A DNA stretch of 64,000 bases from Rhizophagus irregularis (Eukaryota; Glomeromycota; Glomeromycetes; Glomerales; Glomeraceae), in the NCBI RefSeq assembly GCF_026210795.1, contig NC_089435.1:2356001-2420000 (forward strand). The letters run 5' to 3'. Below the pieces are notes generated by a model that did no database searches, had not been told where the DNA came from, and worked only from the letters and a program-made list of their open reading frames with translations. Position numbers and translations under genes: made by a program. Positions 51,991 to 64,000 of the stretch are shown here, piece after piece (within the stretch, counting starts at the first letter, position 1; the number at the start of each line of letters is the position of its first letter).

Positions 51991-54509
51991 TTTTTTTTCA
52001 TGCAATTGAGAACGAAAAAAATAATCGTATGAGAATATTTATCATATATATATGTTGATATAACATGAAATCTATTTTTAAATCCACCTTTTTATGGCAA
52101 ATTCCCTCCTGTGGCAAATATTTATGTTACACCAATTTCCTAAAAGGACATTTCAGTTACCTTAAGAAAGATTTCACTAAAGGAATTTTAACATTTTAAC
52201 GGAAATTTTATTATTCAAAATTTCAAAAGAAATTTTTAGGATTTTTGTCACTTTTCAACTGAACGGTACACATTTATTACCTGTTACCAGCTTTGAAAAT
52301 TGTAATGGACGGATGTATTTTTTTCAGTAAATCTTGTCAAACATTTAATTGCTACAGGGAACGTCCATCCAGTCAATACGTTGGTTACATTATTACAGGG
52401 GAAGTTGTAAACATTCTCCTATATATCCTTCCACAAATATGTTAGTAACCTATTGCGTGCGATTGTTGCGATTGAATTTGTTGAGGAAAATTTGTTGAGA
52501 AATTTGTTGAGAAAGTTGCGATTGAATTTGCTGAGAAATTTGCGATAAGCGTCGTAGCCGAGATAAATATTATGAACTTTTTGGCACAAACCGCTAAAAA
52601 ACCATGTAATCTTTTGATTTTTTTCTTGTTTCTATTTTTTGTAAGCAATTTTGAGATATAACCCAAATTATCTGCTGCAGTAGTTACAATTTTAGATTAT
52701 ACATCTCTTCTGTAAATTACAAGGATTTTGCGGTCTCGGATTTTAACAGTCCTTACATTAACACTTTATGTGGTTATTTCCGGTAAAGGTAAAGTTGTAT
52801 ATTTTTTTATTTTAATTTTAGTTGTTTTATCGATCGTTTCAAATGGTTTGTTCAACTATTTCGTTTCTTGATGGTGGAAATGGAGGTTGGGTGTAAAGAT
52901 TTATGAGTCGATGATTTTTTGTTGTTTCAAAAACAATAAGACATCATGAGTTATTGTATTCATTTCAAATGAGTTAAAAAAAAATCATGTTATCAATAGA
53001 TAAGAAAAGAAAGAAAATCGTTAAAATCGTCATTGTTTATTGATAATGAAAAAAAGGGCAATGATAAAGCCTGTTTTTTTTCTTTACCTTATAGTTATAT
53101 ATACTTTTTTTTTAATAATTAAAAAAACCTGAAACAGCGAAAAAAAAAAATAACGCATATTAAGTACATCTAGTATTATTGGATCTTTTGTTTTGACATA
53201 ATACATGCATTTAAGAAAAACGCCACTTACGCCAATATTGATGTTATGCATTGTCGCATTTTTTAGATTTTCAGATTTTTAGACGTTTAATGTGTGACAT
53301 TATCCCATAATCACGTGTAGTAAACATGTGATCTCTTTGATGCTGCGGTTGAATATTTACTTGTTATAAATCAATATAAATTATTATTTATTTATTTGTA
53401 TATTTTTTTTTATAGAATCTGGAAACTCAAAAGTTAAAAAGTCAATGGATATATTATTTTTTTTCGTAACACAAATTAATATATCTTCAAGAACCATTAT
53501 TTCTCAGCCTTCCTACTAAATACGTATTTACTACGCACAGGATGATCTAATGCTTGATCAATAAATATTATTAAGCGCATTTTTATGTATTATAATTCTC
53601 TTAGTAATTATACTGTAAATTATGGTAATAATAACGCAAAAAAAATATTTTCAAACACAATATGGATACTTATTTATTTAACACGTGATATAAACAGGAA
53701 TATAAAAAATGTTAGACTAAGCCAAACGAACTTTTCTCCATAATCAATTTGAAAAATTTGAAAATAGGCTCAGCTTAAAATCAACTTGATTGGATCATTT
53801 CTTAAAAATAAATACTAAATACCATACCAGTATTAAAGATTTTTATACCTAAATATTAGCTGACTTAAATAATTCATATTTTAGCTGAATATCGGCATCA
53901 CTTTCACAGAACGGCACAAAAAACTTGTACAAAAGTAGAAGATACACTATTAATCATTAAACTTTATAATTTCGGAAACGCCGAATTGTTCATATAGGTG
54001 AAACTAACCTTCTTTAAAATATTTTTTATTATTTAATAGAAAAGGACATTAATTATTTAGTTTATGCTTTCTCTTTTCGTATTAATAAAGTTGACTTAAA
54101 ATTTCAAAAACTCTTTCAAAATAAAAAATGAGCTCATCCAAAAAAAATTCAAAATAAAAATGGAAATCACTTTCCGTTTTTGATTTATCTTTTTTTGAAA
54201 AGATTCATTTCACAAGTACATTAATAACTGTTAATTTTCATAGATATGAATGATTGATTATAGAAAATACCTACGATCTTTGTTGTCAATTGTCGATTTG
54301 CGTTAGCTGACAGTTGATGTGAGTCAGAACCCTATAAAAAATTTATTCCGTGTTTTTTTTTATTCATATAAGTTAATACATTATAAGCAATAATATTAAA
54401 CTGAAAAATTAAAAGCAATAATGTTAAAGCTATAAGTCCATAGATATATATTTAAAATTAATCAATAAAAGTTTATTAATAATATATCGCAACAGAGGAA
54501 TTTGTACGG
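51991..54509. other. AT-rich intergenic upstream of the retrotransposon
   Basis: The only structure seen is a small imperfect repeat of GCGATTGAATTTGTTGAG units at about 52458-52545. No gene recognised. Confidence 0.5.
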
Positions 54510-55132
54510 TGTAATGCCGTAGTATACCTAGTAAATTTATTAATTGTGAGGCGCAGTATTACATTTAGTCTTAGTGTATAAAATTTTAACTTATTTTTAT
54601 TTTTATTTTAATTGGACCGAGAAGTCGTTAAACTAATAATCACATGGATCAAGGTAATTGGTCCGTGATGACCTTAAACTATTAGTCACGAGATTTAAGG
54701 ATAAATGAAGATCCGAAAGATACTAAATTGAATGAAATCAAGTGATCTGAGGTGTCAAGTGATTAATTTGTTGATCACTACGTTAATATTATAAATCATA
54801 ATTCAGGAGTTCATGATGATCAAATGGATACAAAATTAAGATAATGGAAATACTTTAAAACAATGGAAATACTTTAATAATTTAAATCCATGAATCGAAA
54901 TTATGAATTTAGTTACACAAAAACAAACATAAAAGGGCGTGAAGATCACCTTTTGGAAAGGACAGAGAGAGAGAGAGAGAAAATTGGACGAATTTTGTTA
55001 TGAATTATTTATTTTATTATTTAATGTTATTAAACCAAGCATATTATTGTATTTATTTATATTATTAATAAAGAGTCATTTTGTTAATACCTGAGGTGGC
55101 AAACATAATTTTCTATGGGCTCAGGTGTTACA
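54510..55132 (+). repeat. 5' long terminal repeat
   Basis: Starts TGTAATG and ends GTGTTACA, so TGTAA/TTACA form the short terminal inverted repeat that closes LTRs. Near its end ATTAATAAAGAGTC offers a polyadenylation signal, and it holds a (GA)n tract at 54962-54980. A primer-binding site lies two bases past the end. The five bases before it are TACGG. The boundaries come from these features only, since the partner LTR is outside. Confidence 0.65.
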
Positions 55133-55134
55133 AG

Positions 55135-55150
55135 TGGTGCATGCTCCGAG
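55135..55150 (+). other. Probable tRNA primer-binding site
   Basis: TGGTGCATGCTCCGAG begins two bases after the LTR end. TGG pairs with the CCA tail of a tRNA, and the rest would pair with the acceptor and T-arm strand. Which tRNA is not determined. Confidence 0.6.
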
Positions 55151-56444: not shown

Positions 56445-59400
56445 ATGGAATGGTACCATGTTTGGAACGCTGAATATATAAACCATAAACAAGAACATGA
56501 CCTAGGAGTGATAGAACCAGAGGAATGTTTAGCATGTGAAATATGTAACCCAATAGAAAGAGAAGTATCAGCGGCATTCAAGAAATTTTGGGATGCTTTG
56601 TTTAAATTCGAGGATACAATACTAATGTACAATAATGTAACACATAAAGAATTATTGAATTTATTAAGTATGGACAATAGAGAAAGGGAGGATACAATAC
56701 ATAAGGGAAAATGTAGGAATATAGTAGATAGAATAATTGAATCAATAAGGTACAGACAACAACCAAAAATGAAGGAAAAAGGATTGAGAATAATAATTGT
56801 AGTAATTGTAAGGGATTGTATTGAAGGAAACTTGGAAAATGAAATATTTGATCGATTAATAGGATGCCCAGAAATAATGAAACATGGATACATTTTAGAA
56901 GATTGGGATGTTGAAAATAGGTTTCAAAAATTTTGGGATTGGTATAACACGATATTGGAAAATGAAATGAAAGCAATACATGTTAAGAAGTTAGCAATGA
57001 AGTTATTCAGGGATCTATTATATGAAGAAACAGAAGATCTGTTGAGGAAAGAAGAGGTAATTGAATTATTACTCCAGATAGAATATCAAAATAGATGTGA
57101 GGTAGACACGCAAGAAGGAGGTGATGCATGGGTAAGATATGTATCAAAAGTAAGACAAAGATTTATTGATACCAAACAATTTACAAGGGAACCTGAGGAC
57201 CCAGAAAGTGCTAGTCCTGAAAGTTATGAATTAGAGGACAGTGATGGTAGTATACATTATGAAATAAAAATAGAGGATGATGTCGAATGGACAGTAGAAT
57301 CATTAAAAAGAAAAATTGAAGAAATGGGTGGAAGGTTCACCGACAAAGATATACAAAGGATGTGGGACCTAAGGATAAGGATAGAATTGATATTAACAGA
57401 GGACTTTTTAGGTACATTTTTCGAATTAATGAGACTAAGTGATGAAAAATTAAAAGATGAAATAAATGAATGGTTAACAAAAGAAACATTAATATGTGGA
57501 AATTGTAGGAATAGAAAGTTACCTGATATGATAGCAGACATTGGACAATGTAAAAATTGTGAACAAAAAGAATTATTAGAATTAAAGGATGACTTAGAAA
57601 AACTAGGATACGAATTAAATGTGTCAGAAATAGAGAGAATAAGAAAATTCAGGATAAGCAATAGTATAATATTAACAACGGAATTTATGGAAAAATATTT
57701 TCAGGAAATTGATACGAATGACAAAGAATTAAGGACAAAATTATATGAATGGATAAATGAAAATACCACATTTTGTGATGAATGTGGAATAAGATGGATG
57801 AACAATAAATTTGACGAAGGAAAAACCAAGTGTAGGGATTGTGAGAATGACGAAAATGAAATTGATATCAGGGTCAAAAGATTAAAACAAATATGTGATG
57901 ATAATAAAATAGAAATAACTGATGGAGAGTTATTAAGGTTAATCAGTATGGGATATACTGATGGAGAAATATTGGATCAAGAATTTATTGAAATATTCCA
58001 AGGAAATAAAAATGATTTGGAGAAAAATTTAAGGCGGATATTAGATAAATTTCTAAAACAGCAAGCTGGAATTGGGGATAGTGAAAGCAGTGGAAATGAA
58101 TCTGATAACGAAAAATCTGATGGATCTGAAAAAGAATCAGATGGATCTGAAAAAAATAGAGAAATTTTAAATCCAAATGATACCGATAGCAATGAAAATT
58201 TTGAAGAACCTTATGAAGAAAACATTATAAATAGACCCGGTTTTGACTCAAGTGAAAGTTCAGAATCAAATTCTGAGGATAAAAGTGAAATATCTGATTA
58301 TAATATAGAAAATTTATTTGAAACACCTTTAACACCACCGATACCACCAATCCCACCAATAGTACCAATAATTATGGGAGCAACAAGAGCTGAAGTAAGG
58401 GAAGATGTTAGAGCGGCTTTACTAGCAACAACAGGACATGATATAGGAGGTAATTGGGCTGGATTAATCGCAGCCAACCCATTAGCAAATGCAATTGAGG
58501 ATGCAGGAAACGCAGCTGGAGGAATAATTAGTTTGCCACACTTTTATGGAAAAGAAGAAGAAGATGTTAATGATTGGGTAAGACAATTTGAAACAGCATT
58601 CACTGCCATAGGAAAAGCAGCAGGAGTAAATGGAGCTAGACAAGCAGCAATGGCAGCTACCTGTTTGAAAGGTGCAGCAGCACAATGGTATAATGAAAAG
58701 AAGGAAGCAAATAATGGACATTTAGTAAATTGGGCAGACAATGATGATGATAATGATTTGAAACATAGAGTTAAACAAAGATTTACCAGAGAGGATGTTA
58801 GAAAAAGGAAAATGTTAGAATTAAGGAAAATAACACAAGGAGTAAATGAAAATGTTGAGGCATATACGATAAGGTTTAGACAAATATTAAGGATAGCTAC
58901 CAGAGGCCATGCATTAGATGATGAATTACAAGTGGATAATTATATCGAAGGATTAACACCAACATTGGGATATCAAGTCAGAAGACAAAACCCAGCAAAT
59001 CTAAATGATGCGGTGAATACAGCAAGAAGAGAGGAGGAAGCTACTAATGAATTAATAAGAAAGACACGTGGTATATCAGTTAGTACCCAAAGAAAAGGAA
59101 TCGATATACAAGATGACAAGCCAAAGAATATATTTGAAAAACCATTGGAGAAAAATTATGAGGATGACCTTGCCGACATGTTTAAAAAATTAGAGGTAAA
59201 ACTAGTAAATCAACTTGGAGGGCAAAAGAGACCACCAAACAATAACAATAGACAAGGACCACCACCTCGAGCATGTTATAATTGTAAACAACCAGGACAT
59301 TATGCAAATGAATGTAGGGTAAATAATGGTCAAAGAAACTATGGAAGACCAAATAATCAAAATTATAATAGAAGATCAAATAACTATAATGGAAGACCAA

Positions 59401-60032
59401 ATAACTATAACAGACCACCAAACCACCAAAACAATAATCGAGGATTCAATGTAGTGGAATATGATAATTATAATGATCAATATGACCAATATGATTATGA
59501 TAGTCAGGATTATCAGGATAATTATGATCAAGGATATAGTTATGACGACCCGTATTATCAAGATAATGATGTAACATTTAACCATGTTGATCAAGACTTT
59601 TATATTGGTGAAAGACAAACGAGAAGTAACATAAAAAATAGGTCAAGTAATCGAGATATAGATATGGAAATTGACCAAGAACAAGCACGAAGAAGGAATA
59701 ATAAATATGCAAGCCAAGAGGAAAGGGCAGCAGCATTACCAAAAAGAGGATTCACTGATGAAAGTCTGAGGAAAGCACAAGAAGCAAGGAGAAATAATAA
59801 TACATGTGGAAATTGTGGACAAAGAGGTCACTATGCAAAACAATGTAAAAATGAACGTGTTGAAGGTATCCATAGGACAAGCGCATTTCAGAGGAACACA
59901 CCAGAATATAACGTATTAGAGGATATGAAAAATACCAGAGCAAATGCAACCTTTTCACAAATTATAAACATAAGTCCAGAGCAAAGAAAAATATATCATG
60001 AAGGAATGAGAAGGTATCCACAAACAGATTGA
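56445..60032 (+). CDS. gag: Gag polyprotein with a ~640-residue zinc-ribbon extension
   Basis: A 1195-residue protein, far longer than usual Ty3 Gags. Residues 1-~230 hold a C-x2-C-x2-C cluster (C28, C31, C34). Residues ~285-560 form three related ~95-residue modules; the first two each end in a pair of C-x2-C motifs (C351/C354 with C369/C372; C444/C447 with C463/C466). The third lacks the Cys pairs. Next come an acidic Ser/Glu/Asp stretch and a Pro-rich hinge. A typical Gag follows from about M644, with the capsid-like L-K-G-A-A-A-Q-W-Y region and two CCHC knuckles (C944: C-Y-N-C; C1121: C-G-N-C), and a Tyr/Asp/Gln-rich spacer between. It assembles the particle and binds the RNA. The extension's job is unknown. 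It ends in TGA followed by CTA. Confidence 0.92.
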   Translation: MEWYHVWNAEYINHKQEHDLGVIEPEECLACEICNPIEREVSAAFKKFWDALFKFEDTILMYNNVTHKELLNLLSMDNREREDTIHKGKCRNIVDRIIESIRYRQQPKMKEKGLRIIIVVIVRDCIEGNLENEIFDRLIGCPEIMKHGYILEDWDVENRFQKFWDWYNTILENEMKAIHVKKLAMKLFRDLLYEETEDLLRKEEVIELLLQIEYQNRCEVDTQEGGDAWVRYVSKVRQRFIDTKQFTREPEDPESASPESYELEDSDGSIHYEIKIEDDVEWTVESLKRKIEEMGGRFTDKDIQRMWDLRIRIELILTEDFLGTFFELMRLSDEKLKDEINEWLTKETLICGNCRNRKLPDMIADIGQCKNCEQKELLELKDDLEKLGYELNVSEIERIRKFRISNSIILTTEFMEKYFQEIDTNDKELRTKLYEWINENTTFCDECGIRWMNNKFDEGKTKCRDCENDENEIDIRVKRLKQICDDNKIEITDGELLRLISMGYTDGEILDQEFIEIFQGNKNDLEKNLRRILDKFLKQQAGIGDSESSGNESDNEKSDGSEKESDGSEKNREILNPNDTDSNENFEEPYEENIINRPGFDSSESSESNSEDKSEISDYNIENLFETPLTPPIPPIPPIVPIIMGATRAEVREDVRAALLATTGHDIGGNWAGLIAANPLANAIEDAGNAAGGIISLPHFYGKEEEDVNDWVRQFETAFTAIGKAAGVNGARQAAMAATCLKGAAAQWYNEKKEANNGHLVNWADNDDDNDLKHRVKQRFTREDVRKRKMLELRKITQGVNENVEAYTIRFRQILRIATRGHALDDELQVDNYIEGLTPTLGYQVRRQNPANLNDAVNTARREEEATNELIRKTRGISVSTQRKGIDIQDDKPKNIFEKPLEKNYEDDLADMFKKLEVKLVNQLGGQKRPPNNNNRQGPPPRACYNCKQPGHYANECRVNNGQRNYGRPNNQNYNRRSNNYNGRPNNYNRPPNHQNNNRGFNVVEYDNYNDQYDQYDYDSQDYQDNYDQGYSYDDPYYQDNDVTFNHVDQDFYIGERQTRSNIKNRSSNRDIDMEIDQEQARRRNNKYASQEERAAALPKRGFTDESLRKAQEARRNNNTCGNCGQRGHYAKQCKNERVEGIHRTSAFQRNTPEYNVLEDMKNTRANATFSQIINISPEQRKIYHEGMRRYPQTD

Positions 60033-60035
60033 CTA
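60030..60035 (+). promoter_or_regulatory. UGA-CUA readthrough context between gag and protease
   Basis: The Gag stop is TGA followed directly by CTA, and the protease ORF lies in the same frame with no other stop between. UGA-CUA is a documented leaky context in fungi and animals. Readthrough would give Gag-Pro without a frameshift. The function here is inferred. Confidence 0.65.
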
Positions 60036-60044
60036 CAAGAATCA

Positions 60045-60572
60045 ATGAACAACATTGAAGCAGAACACTTAACTGCATTAAGGGGTAAATTAATAATAAA
60101 CCAAGAATTAAAGGACGTAATGTTTGATACAGGAGCAGCAGTAAGTGTAATAACTAGTCAGATAATGGATGAAATGGACCTAAAAATTGAGGAACCAAGT
60201 ACAGTAAGATGTGTGATGATAAATGAGGATAAATTAGCATCTAGGGGTACCACGACAATATACATACAATTTGGGGATAAGGAGATACCCATTAAGGTTG
60301 AAGTAATTGATTCAGGAAAAAACGAAATTGTGTTAGGAAATGGAGTATTAGATATGTTTAAGGCGAATATAGATTACACGGATAAAACAATAATAATTAG
60401 AATGAATGATGAAACTATGGATATACCAGTGAAATACACACAAAGGACCATTAAAGGGTTTGAAGAAACATTTGATGAAGAGGAAATATTAGAAGAATTA
60501 TACCAGGATGAATTGTATAACATATATGAAGATGACCATGAAGGTCAGGAAGATGAAAATTTTAAAGTATAA
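60045..60572 (+). CDS. Retroviral-type aspartic protease
   Basis: A 175-residue frame. The active site reads V-M-F-D-T-G-A-A-V-S-V-I-T, the D-T-G-A signature of retropepsins. The flap region and a later I-V-L-G-N-G-V-L-D block (the family's I-L-G-x-D equivalent) follow. It would cleave Gag and Pol after particle assembly, working as a dimer. It is in the same frame as gag, so it is probably made as Gag-Pro by readthrough; the ATG at 60045 would allow separate initiation. The acidic tail (E-D-D-H-E-G-Q-E-D-E) ends at TAA 60570-60572, and RT continues in the -1 frame. Confidence 0.88.
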   Translation: MNNIEAEHLTALRGKLIINQELKDVMFDTGAAVSVITSQIMDEMDLKIEEPSTVRCVMINEDKLASRGTTTIYIQFGDKEIPIKVEVIDSGKNEIVLGNGVLDMFKANIDYTDKTIIIRMNDETMDIPVKYTQRTIKGFEETFDEEEILEELYQDELYNIYEDDHEGQEDENFKV

Positions 60573-62047
60573 GTCTTGGTCAGAATGATACTGAAGAGAC
60601 GATAAAGAAGCACAAAAGTGACCATGAAAAATTTACTGAAAAATTTAAAGTAGGGGACATAACCAATGAACAAAAAGGTAAATTAAAGGTATTAGTAGAA
60701 AAATATAAGGATATATTTGAGTATGATGGTGAAAAATATAATAGGACAAACCTAGTAAAACATGAAATCAGATTAAAAGGGGGTACTGAACCAATAGCCC
60801 AAAAGAGGTACAAAGAAAATGATGAAAAAGGTAAATTCATCAGAAAAGAGGTTGACGAGATGTTAAAATTGGGAAAAATTAGAGAATCCAGAAGTCCATG
60901 GTCTTCACCAGTGACTTTAGCAGGAAAAAAGTCTGGAAATTATAGGTTTTGCATCGACTATAGAAAATTAAATAAAGTTACAATAACAGATGCATATCCA
61001 TTACCAAGGATTGATGAACAATTAGAAAGGATAAGTTCAGGAAGATGGTTTACTAGTCTAGATTTAGCATCAGGGTTTAATCAGATAGAAATGGCTGAGG
61101 AAGATATTGAGAAAACAGCATTTATATGCTCAGCAGGATTATATGAATATAATGTCATGCCATTTGGGTTAACAAATGCGCCTGCAAGTTTTCAAAGGTT
61201 AATGGATAAAGTATTAAAGGAGTACCTAAATGAATTTGTGATAGTATACATTGATGATATAATGATATATTCGGAAAATTTTGAAGACCACCTAAAACAC
61301 ATAAAGTTAGTGTTAGAAAAATTAAAGGAAGCCAGTTTAATACTAAAGTTAAAGAAATGTATATTTGGAAAAACAGAAATAGAATTTTTAGGACATGTAG
61401 TTGGTAAAAATGGATTAAAACCAAGTCCAGGAAAGGTTGAAAAGATACAAAAATTAACAGCACCTATAAATATAAAAGGTGTAAGGTCAATATTGGGGTT
61501 ATGTACGTATTATAGAAAATTTATTAAAGATTTTTCAAAAATAGTAAAACCAATAACATCTTTATTGAGAAAAGATGAAAAGTTTGAATGGGGCATCAAA
61601 CAACATGAAGCATTAGAAATATTAAAAAGGAAATTAACCGAAGAACCGGTGTTAAGACAACCAGATTGGTTAAGGAAATTTATATTAATTACAGATGCTT
61701 CAGGAATAGGATTAGGGGCAGTGTTAGCTCAAAAAGATGATAAAGGTCAAGAATACGTAATAGAATATGCCAGTAAAAGTTTAAACAGGACAGAACAAAG
61801 ATGGCCAATAACCGAACAAGAATGTTATGCAATTGTATGGGGAATACAACATTTCCATAAATACTTGATCAATAGAAAATTTGAGGTAGTAACAGACCAT
61901 GCAGCTTTAAAGGGATTAATGACTGCAAAAGTACCAAAAGGAAAGAGATCAAGATGGGTCATGGAATTGGAACAGTATGATTTTGAAATAACCCATAGAC
62001 CAGGAAAAGAAAATAAAAACGCAGATGCCTTATCAAGAATAATATAA
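60566..62047 (+). CDS. Reverse transcriptase and RNase H
   Basis: The open frame begins just before the protease stop, in the -1 frame, and runs 493 codons. The first ATG is at 60860, but RT-like sequence (L-V-E-K-Y-K-D-I-F; H-E-I-R-L-K-G-G-T-E-P-I) starts well upstream of it, so that ATG is not the natural N-terminus. RT motifs: F-C-I-D-Y-R-K-L-N, F-T-S-L-D-L-A-S-G-F, M-P-F-G-L-T-N-A-P, and the catalytic Y-I-D-D. RNase H: I-T-D-A-S-G-I-G-L-G with later E-Q-E-C-Y-A and the N-A-D-A-L-S-R end. It copies element RNA into DNA in the particle. How ribosomes move from the protease to this frame is not obvious from the sequence. Confidence 0.92.
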   Translation, partial: SISLGQNDTEETIKKHKSDHEKFTEKFKVGDITNEQKGKLKVLVEKYKDIFEYDGEKYNRTNLVKHEIRLKGGTEPIAQKRYKENDEKGKFIRKEVDEMLKLGKIRESRSPWSSPVTLAGKKSGNYRFCIDYRKLNKVTITDAYPLPRIDEQLERISSGRWFTSLDLASGFNQIEMAEEDIEKTAFICSAGLYEYNVMPFGLTNAPASFQRLMDKVLKEYLNEFVIVYIDDIMIYSENFEDHLKHIKLVLEKLKEASLILKLKKCIFGKTEIEFLGHVVGKNGLKPSPGKVEKIQKLTAPINIKGVRSILGLCTYYRKFIKDFSKIVKPITSLLRKDEKFEWGIKQHEALEILKRKLTEEPVLRQPDWLRKFILITDASGIGLGAVLAQKDDKGQEYVIEYASKSLNRTEQRWPITEQECYAIVWGIQHFHKYLINRKFEVVTDHAALKGLMTAKVPKGKRSRWVMELEQYDFEITHRPGKENKNADALSRII

Positions 62048-62083: not shown

Positions 62084-62323
62084 ATGGAACAAGTGGTAAG
62101 AAATACAAATCATAAAATAAAGGATATAATCGAAAATTTAGAAGGTATAACAAAGGAATTAAACAGGATAAATTATAACTATAAATTCAAAGCCAAAAAT
62201 TTTGAAGATAGTGAAGAAAGACCATTAATATTGGAAACTCAAGGGGAAATATTACAAATAGAGGTGATATTAAGTAAAGTAAACAAGCTAAAATTATCAG
62301 AATTATGTAAAAATGGGACCTAA
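62084..62323 (+). CDS. Small helical ORF between RNase H and kinase-integrase
   Basis: 79 codons from ATG 62084, in the same frame as RT but after its stop (36 bases after TAA 62045-62047). The sequence is Asn/Lys/Glu-rich with regular Ile/Leu spacing (H-K-I-K-D-I-I-E-N-L-E-G-I; I-E-V-I-L-S-K-V-N-K-L), suggesting a coiled coil. It overlaps the next ORF by 11 bases (ATG 62313, stop ends 62323), an arrangement that allows reinitiation or a +1 shift. No known domain. It could be a linker segment cut off by a mutation, or a small accessory protein. Confidence 0.5.
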   Translation: MEQVVRNTNHKIKDIIENLEGITKELNRINYNYKFKAKNFEDSEERPLILETQGEILQIEVILSKVNKLKLSELCKNGT

Positions 62324-64000
62324 AATAATAATCATATGTGGAGTTGATGGTACTGGAAAAACATTCATTGTAAATAAACTTATAAAAGAATTTGAAAAAG
62401 TAGGACAAAGTGTGAGGTTTAACACCTTTAAAAGGAAAAGAGAGGACAATGATAAGTATAAATTACCAAAGAAAGGTATAGAATGGGAATTCAGGAAGGA
62501 AGTTGTTGAACAAATCAACAGGAGAATGGAAGAACATGATAATGAGGATTGGTTAATATTAGATAAAAGTCCCTATAGTGAGTACTTTTATCAACAAACA
62601 CCATCATTCGACAGAGGATACATAACAAGATATGAGAACCACCTATTAGAAAAGGAAGTATTTAGGAACAAAAGGATAATTGATGAATCAATAGTGATAT
62701 TTTTAGAAAATGAAAAATGTTGGGAAAATTACAAAGGTAGAGAATATTCGAAAAAGGATCAAGGACATAAAACATCATATCCATTATTAGATGAAGAAAG
62801 ATATATGGAGATGGTGAAATCATTTAAAGAATGTCAAGATATTTACAAAGGAGAAAAATATGCTAATATTAAAATATCAAATAATGACACAGATTGGGAA
62901 AGAGTATATAATAAAATAATAGAATTAGATGGAGATAAACCACCAATAGAGGTTAAAAATGTTGAGATTAAGGATAACATCAGGGTAACTGATGGTAAAA
63001 AGCATATTGAGAAAAATGGTAAAAACATCAGAATAATAGAAGATTTTGAAAAGATGGGAGCACTATATTTAGCTCACAGTCATGAATTATCGGCACATAT
63101 GGGAATCAAAAGTACTTATGATAATTTAAAAGATAAATATTATTGGGAAAATATGCTGAATGACGTTGAAAGATATGTAAGGACATGTGATGAATGTCAA
63201 AGAAGAGGAAAACCACAAGGGAAAAATGAATTACACCCAATTAAAGTAGTAGAACCATGGTATCAAATCGGGATTGACTTTGTTGGACCATTGAACACAA
63301 CAACAAATGGTAATAAATACATCATAGTTGCAATGGATTATTTTACAAAATGGCCAGAAGCCAAAGCAGTAAAAGAAGCAACTGCCAAAGAAGTATCAAA
63401 ATTTATTTATGAAGACATCATTTGTAGACATGGATGTCCAATGAAAATATTGAGTGATAGAGGAAGTCATTTCAATAATGAAATGATTAAGGAATTAATG
63501 GAAAAATTTAAAATTAAATGGAATTTTTCTACAAGTTATCATCCAGAGACAAACGGACTTGTTGAAAGATTCAACCGAACATTAGGTCAAGCATTAGCAA
63601 AATTATCAACCAAAGATGATTGGGATCAAAGGATAGCACCCATATTATTTGCTTACCGAAATAAAAAGCATAGTTCAACGAGAATTCGACCATTTTATTT
63701 AACATACGGAAGAAATGTACGGACAATAATGGATGAAAATATCAAAGAAATTAACCTAAACGATAGAATAGTTGGATTATTAGAAGAACTACCAAAAATC
63801 CGACATGAAGCCAAAGAACAAATACTGAAATCTCAAACAAAACAAAAAGAGTATCATGACAGAAAAATAAGCAAAGAACACACCTTTGGAATTGGAGATA
63901 AAATACTACTCTATGATAAAGCCAAAGCACAACAACTATCGGGAAAATTAGAATCAAAATGGTTGGGACCATTTTACATTCATGAAATACTACCGAATGG
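62313..64000 (+). CDS. P-loop (thymidylate/nucleoside-kinase-like) domain fused to integrase, 3' end beyond window
   Basis: One frame is open for 562 codons from ATG 62313 to the window edge. Residues 1-~205 resemble P-loop nucleoside or thymidylate kinases. They contain I-I-I-I-C-G-V-D-G-T-G-K-T (Walker A, residues 10-17), L-I-L-D-K-S-P-Y-S near 82-89 where thymidylate kinases have a D-R-Y/H-x-x-S block, Y-Q-Q soon after, I-V-I-F-L-E at 127-132, and an Arg/Lys-rich lid-like stretch (G-R-E-Y-S-K-K). After a ~40-residue linker comes integrase: an H-H-C-C zinc domain (H255 or H257, H262; C292, C295), then catalytic D322, D382 and E418 (D,D35E) and the G-P-F motif near 552. The kinase part could phosphorylate nucleotides for reverse transcription. 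Substrate and activity are inferred. A distant P-loop phosphotransferase is the alternative. Confidence 0.85.
   Translation, partial: MGPKIIIICGVDGTGKTFIVNKLIKEFEKVGQSVRFNTFKRKREDNDKYKLPKKGIEWEFRKEVVEQINRRMEEHDNEDWLILDKSPYSEYFYQQTPSFDRGYITRYENHLLEKEVFRNKRIIDESIVIFLENEKCWENYKGREYSKKDQGHKTSYPLLDEERYMEMVKSFKECQDIYKGEKYANIKISNNDTDWERVYNKIIELDGDKPPIEVKNVEIKDNIRVTDGKKHIEKNGKNIRIIEDFEKMGALYLAHSHELSAHMGIKSTYDNLKDKYYWENMLNDVERYVRTCDECQRRGKPQGKNELHPIKVVEPWYQIGIDFVGPLNTTTNGNKYIIVAMDYFTKWPEAKAVKEATAKEVSKFIYEDIICRHGCPMKILSDRGSHFNNEMIKELMEKFKIKWNFSTSYHPETNGLVERFNRTLGQALAKLSTKDDWDQRIAPILFAYRNKKHSSTRIRPFYLTYGRNVRTIMDENIKEINLNDRIVGLLEELPKIRHEAKEQILKSQTKQKEYHDRKISKEHTFGIGDKILLYDKAKAQQLSGKLESKWLGPFYIHEILPN

Follow-up and report, generated by a model that had tools for sequence, protein, structure and literature searches.

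A thymidylate-kinase-like domain between RNase H and integrase in Ty3/Gypsy retrotransposons of Rhizophagus irregularis

What is a nucleotide-kinase-like domain doing inside a retrotransposon, and is it kept there because it serves the element? The question is raised by a stretch of 64,000 nucleotides from the arbuscular mycorrhizal fungus Rhizophagus irregularis (contig NC_089435.1, positions 2,356,001 to 2,420,000 of the forward strand; "the window" hereafter denotes this whole stretch, to which all coordinates refer), at whose end a long terminal repeat (LTR) retrotransposon of the Ty3/Gypsy type encodes a P-loop domain in front of its integrase. This domain is nucleotide-kinase-like, and structure prediction assigns it the fold shared by thymidylate and deoxynucleoside kinases. 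We consider it likely that a Ty3/Gypsy clade of glomeralean fungi acquired it, probably once, and kept it as a deoxynucleoside monophosphate (dNMP) kinase, likely a deoxythymidine monophosphate (dTMP) kinase, that supplies deoxythymidine triphosphate (dTTP) for reverse transcription.

Identity and fold of the kinase domain

The kinase and the integrase that follows it comprise these features:

62313..62930, plus strand: thymidylate-kinase-like P-loop domain, about residues 1-206
62340..62363, plus strand: P-loop GVDGTGKT, residues 10-17
62562..62594, plus strand: motif DKSPY[S/C]EY[F/Y]YQ, residues 84-94, the counterpart of the DR...S...YQ block of thymidylate kinases
62718..62780, plus strand: LID region C-W-x-N-Y-x2-R-E-x2-K ... 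S-Y, residues 136-156
62943..64000, plus strand: integrase with H2C2 zinc finger, D,D35E core and GPF motif, running on to 64091 outside the window

The original prediction, made from these letters without database searches, had described a single uninterrupted frame with a P-loop GVDGTGKT, an LDKSP block and a complete D,D35E integrase in phase. For kinase plus integrase this description stands, whereas gag, protease and reverse transcriptase (RT)-RNase H lie in separate frames upstream. The open reading frame (ORF) 62313-63998 is open to the window edge and ends at 64091 in the genome (600 codons stop to stop), and its first ATG, at 62313, is the kinase's own in AAAAATGG (subfamily A, to which the window's element belongs). 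The second block reads LDKSPY at residues 83-88, and the integrase matches the Pfam families Integrase_H2C2 (1.5e-17) and rve (8.3e-11), with HHCC, D-59-D-35-E and GPF all present. Together with flanking LTRs and the order gag, protease, RT, RNase H and integrase, the HHCC, D,D35E and GPY/F features place the element in Ty3/Gypsy (Metaviridae).

Thymidylate kinases are marked by a P-loop G-x-D-G-x-G-K-[ST] and by a DR[YFHS] motif with Arg. The first of these is found here, and a Pfam scan of the first 216 residues returned AAA_28 (5e-6) and, below its cut-off, Thymidylate_kin (2.5e-4), the PHROG_761 profile (thymidylate kinase) matching residues 3-198 at 1.8e-12. Relatives of the domain reach the Pfam family PF02223 (Thymidylate_kin) more readily, namely 9/10 at E<=0.01 and 17/18 at E<=0.001, and some have a precomputed PF02223 assignment; the deoxynucleoside kinase profile PF01712 was reached by 2/10 at 0.01 and by 1/18 at 0.001. 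We read 21 domains from the same genome, picked among stop-free matches (three subfamily A copies, one at 89% identity, and 17 from subfamilies B, described below), in all of which G-V-D-G-x-G-K, L-D-K-S-P-Y, Y93-Q94 and N-Y-x-x-R-E are invariant; the LID motif is kept up to K147 in 21/21 and S-Y in 10/10. The predicted structure shows the thymidylate kinase fold, and the 50 best rows of a VIA comparison are all nucleoside or nucleotide kinases for the window's model and all but one (NadR) for that of a free-standing relative. Profile search and fold comparison thus bear out the nucleotide-kinase-like domain first proposed for this Gypsy-type element.

FtsY heads the PDB sequence lists (E 3.5e-6, alignment A2), which would fit a fragment of an FtsY/signal recognition particle (SRP)-type GTPase. 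However, this match is confined to the P-loop and the preceding helix (68 columns, E 4e-7), as against 159 columns for thymidylate kinases. Moreover, a full FtsY/SRP G domain carries DTAGR and TKLD motifs, which were both found in the FtsY pair used for comparison and are both missing from the domain, and the VIA rows point to kinases for both models. We therefore rejected an FtsY identity, which we rate the most improbable of all the alternatives weighed here.

Selection and placement across subfamilies

The genome searched comprises 146.7 Mb in 32 contigs and holds at least 151 matches to the 216-residue kinase domain, some of them pieces of one broken copy. Its assignment to R. irregularis agrees with the public proteins P0159-P0161, which carry that species name and are 97.7-100% identical to the window's RT-RNase H. 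About 36 of the listed matches, two of them fragments, belong to subfamily A at 89-100% identity, and most of the others fall into subfamilies B at 45-65%. Between A and B, the kinase is 54-59% identical, the integrase 53-60% (long matches) and RT-RNase H 64-68%. Among the matches listed, 34 are full-length A places (>=89% identity), of which 33 have a stop-free kinase and 22 an open frame of at least 600 amino acids; reading the surroundings of the kinase at 20 A loci showed the 600-amino-acid frame at 14 of them.

Purifying selection acts on the kinase domain across subfamilies. The NG86 ratio of nonsynonymous to synonymous divergence (dN/dS) between groups was 0.05-0.19 in 12 of 15 comparisons and not estimable in three, values that are only rough, since many of the pairs approach saturation, with pS as high as 0.74. 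Within B1, B2 and B3 it was 0.11, 0.06 and 0.11, respectively, and 0.28 for three near-identical A copies. That so many copies keep the kinase intact suggests a use for it in the element's own replication. The original prediction had argued from a kinase intact alongside its integrase that selection, and not chance insertion, was at work, and had named the lack of any kinase match and a single chance insertion as the outcomes that would speak against it; with the profile and fold matches and the further genomic copies, neither holds. The conservation of the kinase across subfamilies already refutes chance insertion, and we regard a functionless passenger as very improbable too: although stops or truncations in some copies and weak selection inside the youngest subfamily would suit it, several subfamilies carry the domain, in differing frame arrangements, the fungi named belong to two genera, and both a dN/dS well below 1 and the rarity of stops in full-length A places speak for maintenance.

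In ten elements that we mapped (three A, seven B), the kinase invariably lies between RNase H and integrase, but its partners differ. Subfamily A has the order gag, protease, RT-RNase H, small ORF and kinase-integrase, with damage in two of the three copies (a protease frameshift in one; breaks in gag, small ORF and integrase in the other). In six of the seven B copies, RT-RNase H and kinase share one frame and the integrase is separate, gag being damaged in two of these six; the seventh copy is rearranged. Kinase-integrase joins outside A occur in the public gene models P0010 and P0022 and, by Pfam domains, in P0030 and P0096; RNase H is part of the same model in P0022, and predicted introns may have created some of these joins. 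Furthermore, many JGI/ENA matches are kinases of about 250-267 amino acids with an M start and similar ends that lack both RNase H and integrase; 18 selected examples can be aligned along their length, including an N-terminal module (about 45-55 residues) of moderate conservation, and two such kinases, P0050 and P0052, seem to share a contig with the RT-RNase H proteins P0146 and P0156, respectively. From these short M-start proteins and the two pairings, it is probable that the kinase is encoded alone, as a free-standing frame, in some relatives. Hence, the kinase-integrase fusion initially taken as the layout of the element is found in subfamily A and in some gene models outside it but is not essential: in related elements the kinase is joined to RT-RNase H or, probably, stands by itself.

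Proposed function and origin

In the mechanism that we propose, the kinase would phosphorylate dNMPs, most likely dTMP, and the resulting dTTP would feed reverse transcription in or near the particle. In subfamily A the kinase, started from its own ATG, would form the N-terminal part of the integrase protein, and in the other subfamilies it would be made with RT-RNase H or, probably, alone. On the plus strand, the element's internal part is richer in A (44.1%, against 35.0% in window positions 1-54000) and poorer in T (25.0% against 37.5%), and because of this A-richness, first-strand cDNA synthesis would draw mostly on dTTP. Most nuclei in coenocytic hyphae are presumably outside S phase. A function in deoxynucleoside triphosphate (dNTP) supply is plausible. 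To our knowledge, no dNTP-pool enzyme other than dUTPase has been established in LTR elements. A bolder version, which we put forward tentatively and with somewhat less than even confidence, is that this is the first reverse-transcribing element with its own deoxynucleotide kinase, a relative of phage-type thymidylate kinases that fungal Gypsy elements acquired once, that enters the particle together with RT or integrase and that regenerates dTTP there for an A-rich genome in hyphae with low or host-depleted dNTPs. If true, retroelements can carry not only the quality control but also the supply of DNA building blocks, and the enzyme would allow testing whether dNTP supply limits retrotransposition.

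The nearest precedent is the dUTPase, likewise a captured dNTP-pool enzyme inside gag-pol, which the accessible parts of two sources describe for retroviruses, the rotifer elements Juno, Vesta and TelKA and the fungal Gypsy element PosPlaTy3, at a family-dependent position (Pol N-terminus, Pol C-terminus or the gap between protease and RT) that varies in fungi too, and for which a role as replication aid in non-dividing cells has been proposed (PMC2864245, PMC5408684). In the present elements, by contrast, the place between RNase H and integrase is taken by a P-loop kinase with a thymidylate kinase fold, and no dUTPase family was among the Pfam matches of the five element ORFs scanned. Elements with a chromodomain, DEDDy exonuclease, GDSL esterase or viral helicase likewise keep a captured extra domain (PMC5408684, PMC6338049, as far as their accessible parts go). 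The word "kinase" is absent from the main text of the latter two papers, and "thymidylate kinase" from the text of two R. irregularis transposon surveys (PMC8647823, PMC11075540). Our literature search, mostly outside subscription papers and hence no proof of absence, found no co-occurrence of "thymidylate kinase" with "LTR retrotransposon" and, among the titles and abstract openings listed, no retroelement nucleotide kinase. In public databases the kinase proteins go by labels such as "zinc knuckle protein", "enzymatic polyprotein" and "hypothetical protein"; automatic naming at JGI has made several of them "thymidylate kinase", and we found no statement assigning these to a retroelement.

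Several observations weigh against a dTMP kinase that serves the element. The window's domain scores only 21.2 bits on Thymidylate_kin (PF02223; cut-off 27) and 21.6 on TIGR00041 (cut-off 83.25), and every copy read has DK where thymidylate kinases have DR (Lys in 21/21 and 18/18), for which reason we label the domain "thymidylate-kinase-like" rather than dTMP kinase. The top Foldseek match in the PDB for both models is the Giardia deoxyadenosine kinase (E 3.0e-6 and 2.4e-6), not a thymidylate kinase, and for the window's model VIA does not separate thymidylate from deoxynucleoside kinases, the folds being tied. Selection on the kinase is weak within the young subfamily A, clearly weaker than on RT-RNase H and integrase: dN/dS there is 0.19 (14 copies, six of 20 loci having been left out for indels or damage) or 0.22 (19 copies) for the kinase, whereas over 14 copies RT-RNase H gives 0.043 and integrase 0.10. 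Distinct variants relative to the window copy number 14 nonsynonymous (N) to 13 synonymous (S) for the kinase, where 18.8 : 7.5 are expected (P 0.041, 19 copies); integrase has 28 N : 64 S plus one stop (16 copies) and RT-RNase H 9 : 49 (13 copies). Finally, apart from the strand bias, the demand for dTTP is not special, as A+T makes up 72.5% of the remaining window too.

The structural matches would suit a deoxynucleoside or other small-molecule kinase with the same supply role but a different substrate. We consider this unlikely, though worth weighing, as the P-loop GVDGxGK and the thymidylate kinase profiles fit a thymidylate kinase better, and the first 21 VIA rows of the free-standing relative are thymidylate kinases, by a margin of only about 1 Z unit. 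Alternatively, the domain may have kept the fold but lost dTMP kinase activity, acting on protein or RNA as an ATP-dependent switch or assembly factor. The replacement of Arg by Lys, the sub-threshold Pfam score and the extra N-terminal module of the free-standing form, which is predicted to fold, speak for such a role, whereas the invariant P-loop, acidic residue of DKS, Y-Q pair and LID R-E resemble a working phosphotransferase; we find it rather improbable. A dTMP-directed supply enzyme remains our preferred reading.

As to its history, a tree was built from RT-RNase H sequences, namely the best 120 of 7424 matches and the kinase matches with a long RT; thinning reduced these from 117 rows to 99, and the rows of subfamily A were labelled kinase-bearing from the genome. 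All 22 kinase-bearing rows fall inside one 43-row clade (support 98/95). In its remaining 21 rows the protein sequence includes no kinase, in most cases because the frame stops after RNase H, so that the elements themselves may still carry one. The R. irregularis family around P0180 (close rows P0179, P0184 and P0222) lies outside this clade, and at its 23 genome places of >=84% identity (short pieces excluded) none of the listed kinase matches occurs within 10 kb. Another layout without a kinase follows downstream of a B copy, where only about 250 bases separate an RT-RNase H, at 49.7% identity to that of the window, from its integrase. Among the matches with a kinase, the organism names given are R. 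irregularis, R. clarus and Glomus cerebriforme; the last two species are Glomeraceae. In a kinase tree (76 rows), whose layout labels were guessed from protein ends and are in some cases wrong (fragments counted as free-standing), A falls into a clade (94/95) whose kinases are for the most part short and perhaps free-standing. Its fusion to integrase looks derived, given this position and RT neighbours that include P0146, and the scatter of fused rows suggests that fusion arose more than once. Long tails after RNase H also occur outside the kinase clade (P0195, P0199, P0207, P0220, P0225 and others) and are Cys/His-rich in 10 of 11; two that were scanned gave no Pfam family above cut-off. This slot may hold differing accessory domains.

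A host or viral donor had been suggested for the kinase, and the host half of that suggestion found no support. The host thymidylate kinase (CDC8-type label; G000:C13 ~3242213-3242981) belongs to the same Pfam family by profile and resembles the domain at the P-loop, but has a canonical DRY, and its exons match weakly or only at the P-loop piece, those beyond it not exceeding shuffled sequences (17-183 of 200 as high), in a comparison of low power given the short exons. A second match in the genome (L041, G000:C24:3288271-3288729; PF02223 E 8.5e-11, two stops in six-frame translation) is by eye distinct from both the host gene and the retroelement kinases.

Phage thymidylate kinases of PHROG_761 (e.g. 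of Vibrio phage sm033 and Oceanotoga phage UFV02; 5/5 match the family) share the P-loop and the DRS/DKS...YQ block, the DK block aligning with phage DRS, and match by profile across most of the domain (the 159 columns given above). They differ in an identity of only about 20%, in having DR where the element has DK, and in being separate genes, in 3/5 records beside nucleotide-metabolism genes, with no link to retroelements. These five, annotated as thymidylate kinases, come from the 17 weak matches given next and were chosen for matching, which inflates their hhalign and shuffle scores. Against 50,697 phage records the window's domain gave nothing at E 0.01, and two relatives gave 10 and 7 weak matches at E<=1 (thymidylate kinases, FtsY and unannotated proteins; best E 2e-4 and 8e-3). 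Conserved peptide patterns found 99 matches in GTDB genomes and 35 in IMG/VR, none confirmed by tblastn. On these results, the phage likeness is a resemblance and not a demonstrated transfer.

Element architecture and expression signals

Upstream of the kinase, the element comprises the following features:

54510..55137, plus strand: 5' LTR, paired with an LTR outside the window (window coordinates 64432-65056)
56445..60032, plus strand: gag ORF, with the capsid starting near residue 730, and with two zinc knuckles
60030..60035, plus strand: gag/protease junction TGA CTA, a likely programmed stop-codon readthrough site
60033..60572, plus strand: aspartic protease, in the gag frame beyond the TGA
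60566..62047, plus strand: RT-RNase H ORF, opening at 60566, with its first listed ATG at 60860
62084..62323, plus strand: small ORF of 79 amino acids that follows RNase H and shares its last 11 bases with the start of the kinase

Stop-codon readthrough is known to occur at UGA-CUA. TGA CTA CA[A/C] ends gag, with the protease frame following, in all seven elements inspected among the ten mapped, which belong to different subfamilies with varying flanking codons; in one A copy a frameshift breaks the protease after TGA CTA. Judged by this recurrence of the motif, TGA CTA in this fungal retrotransposon is likely a programmed readthrough site. A -1 frameshift at AAATTTT upstream of the protease stop was rejected, as the shifted frame hits TAA immediately. 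Right behind that stop, a motif GTCTTGG...GA.ACG.TAAAGA (60569-60615) recurs by eye in A, B2 and B3 and is perhaps a recoding or re-initiation signal for RT.

At 14 of the 20 A loci, the small ORF measures 87 codons between stops; it has 95-101 at three, is absent from three, and matched no Pfam family above cut-off. Among 30 shuffle comparisons, it weakly resembles the stretch between kinase and integrase of one B2 copy (2 and 0 of 300 shuffles as high in two frames); since the stretch 5' of the kinase in one B1 copy likewise reached 0/300, this similarity perhaps reflects K/E-rich composition. The N-terminal ~680 residues of gag (56445-58500) precede the capsid, carry Cys-x2-Cys motifs and are recognisable also in B subfamilies; a Pfam scan of the residues before the capsid found no significant match. 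ARAGORN found no tRNA in the window that fits the primer-binding site.

The LTRs (628 bp, termini TGTAA...TTACA) are 99.5% identical, and in this copy, the one examined for a target-site duplication, the five-base flanks differ (TACGG at 54505-54509, ATGGC at 65057-65061). Mismatched flanks around LTRs so nearly identical make recombination between copies possible. The public models P0160 and P0161, both labelled "hypothetical protein PTSG_12973", combine subfamily A gag, protease and RT-RNase H in one model, seemingly by splicing or by a join across the intervening stops.
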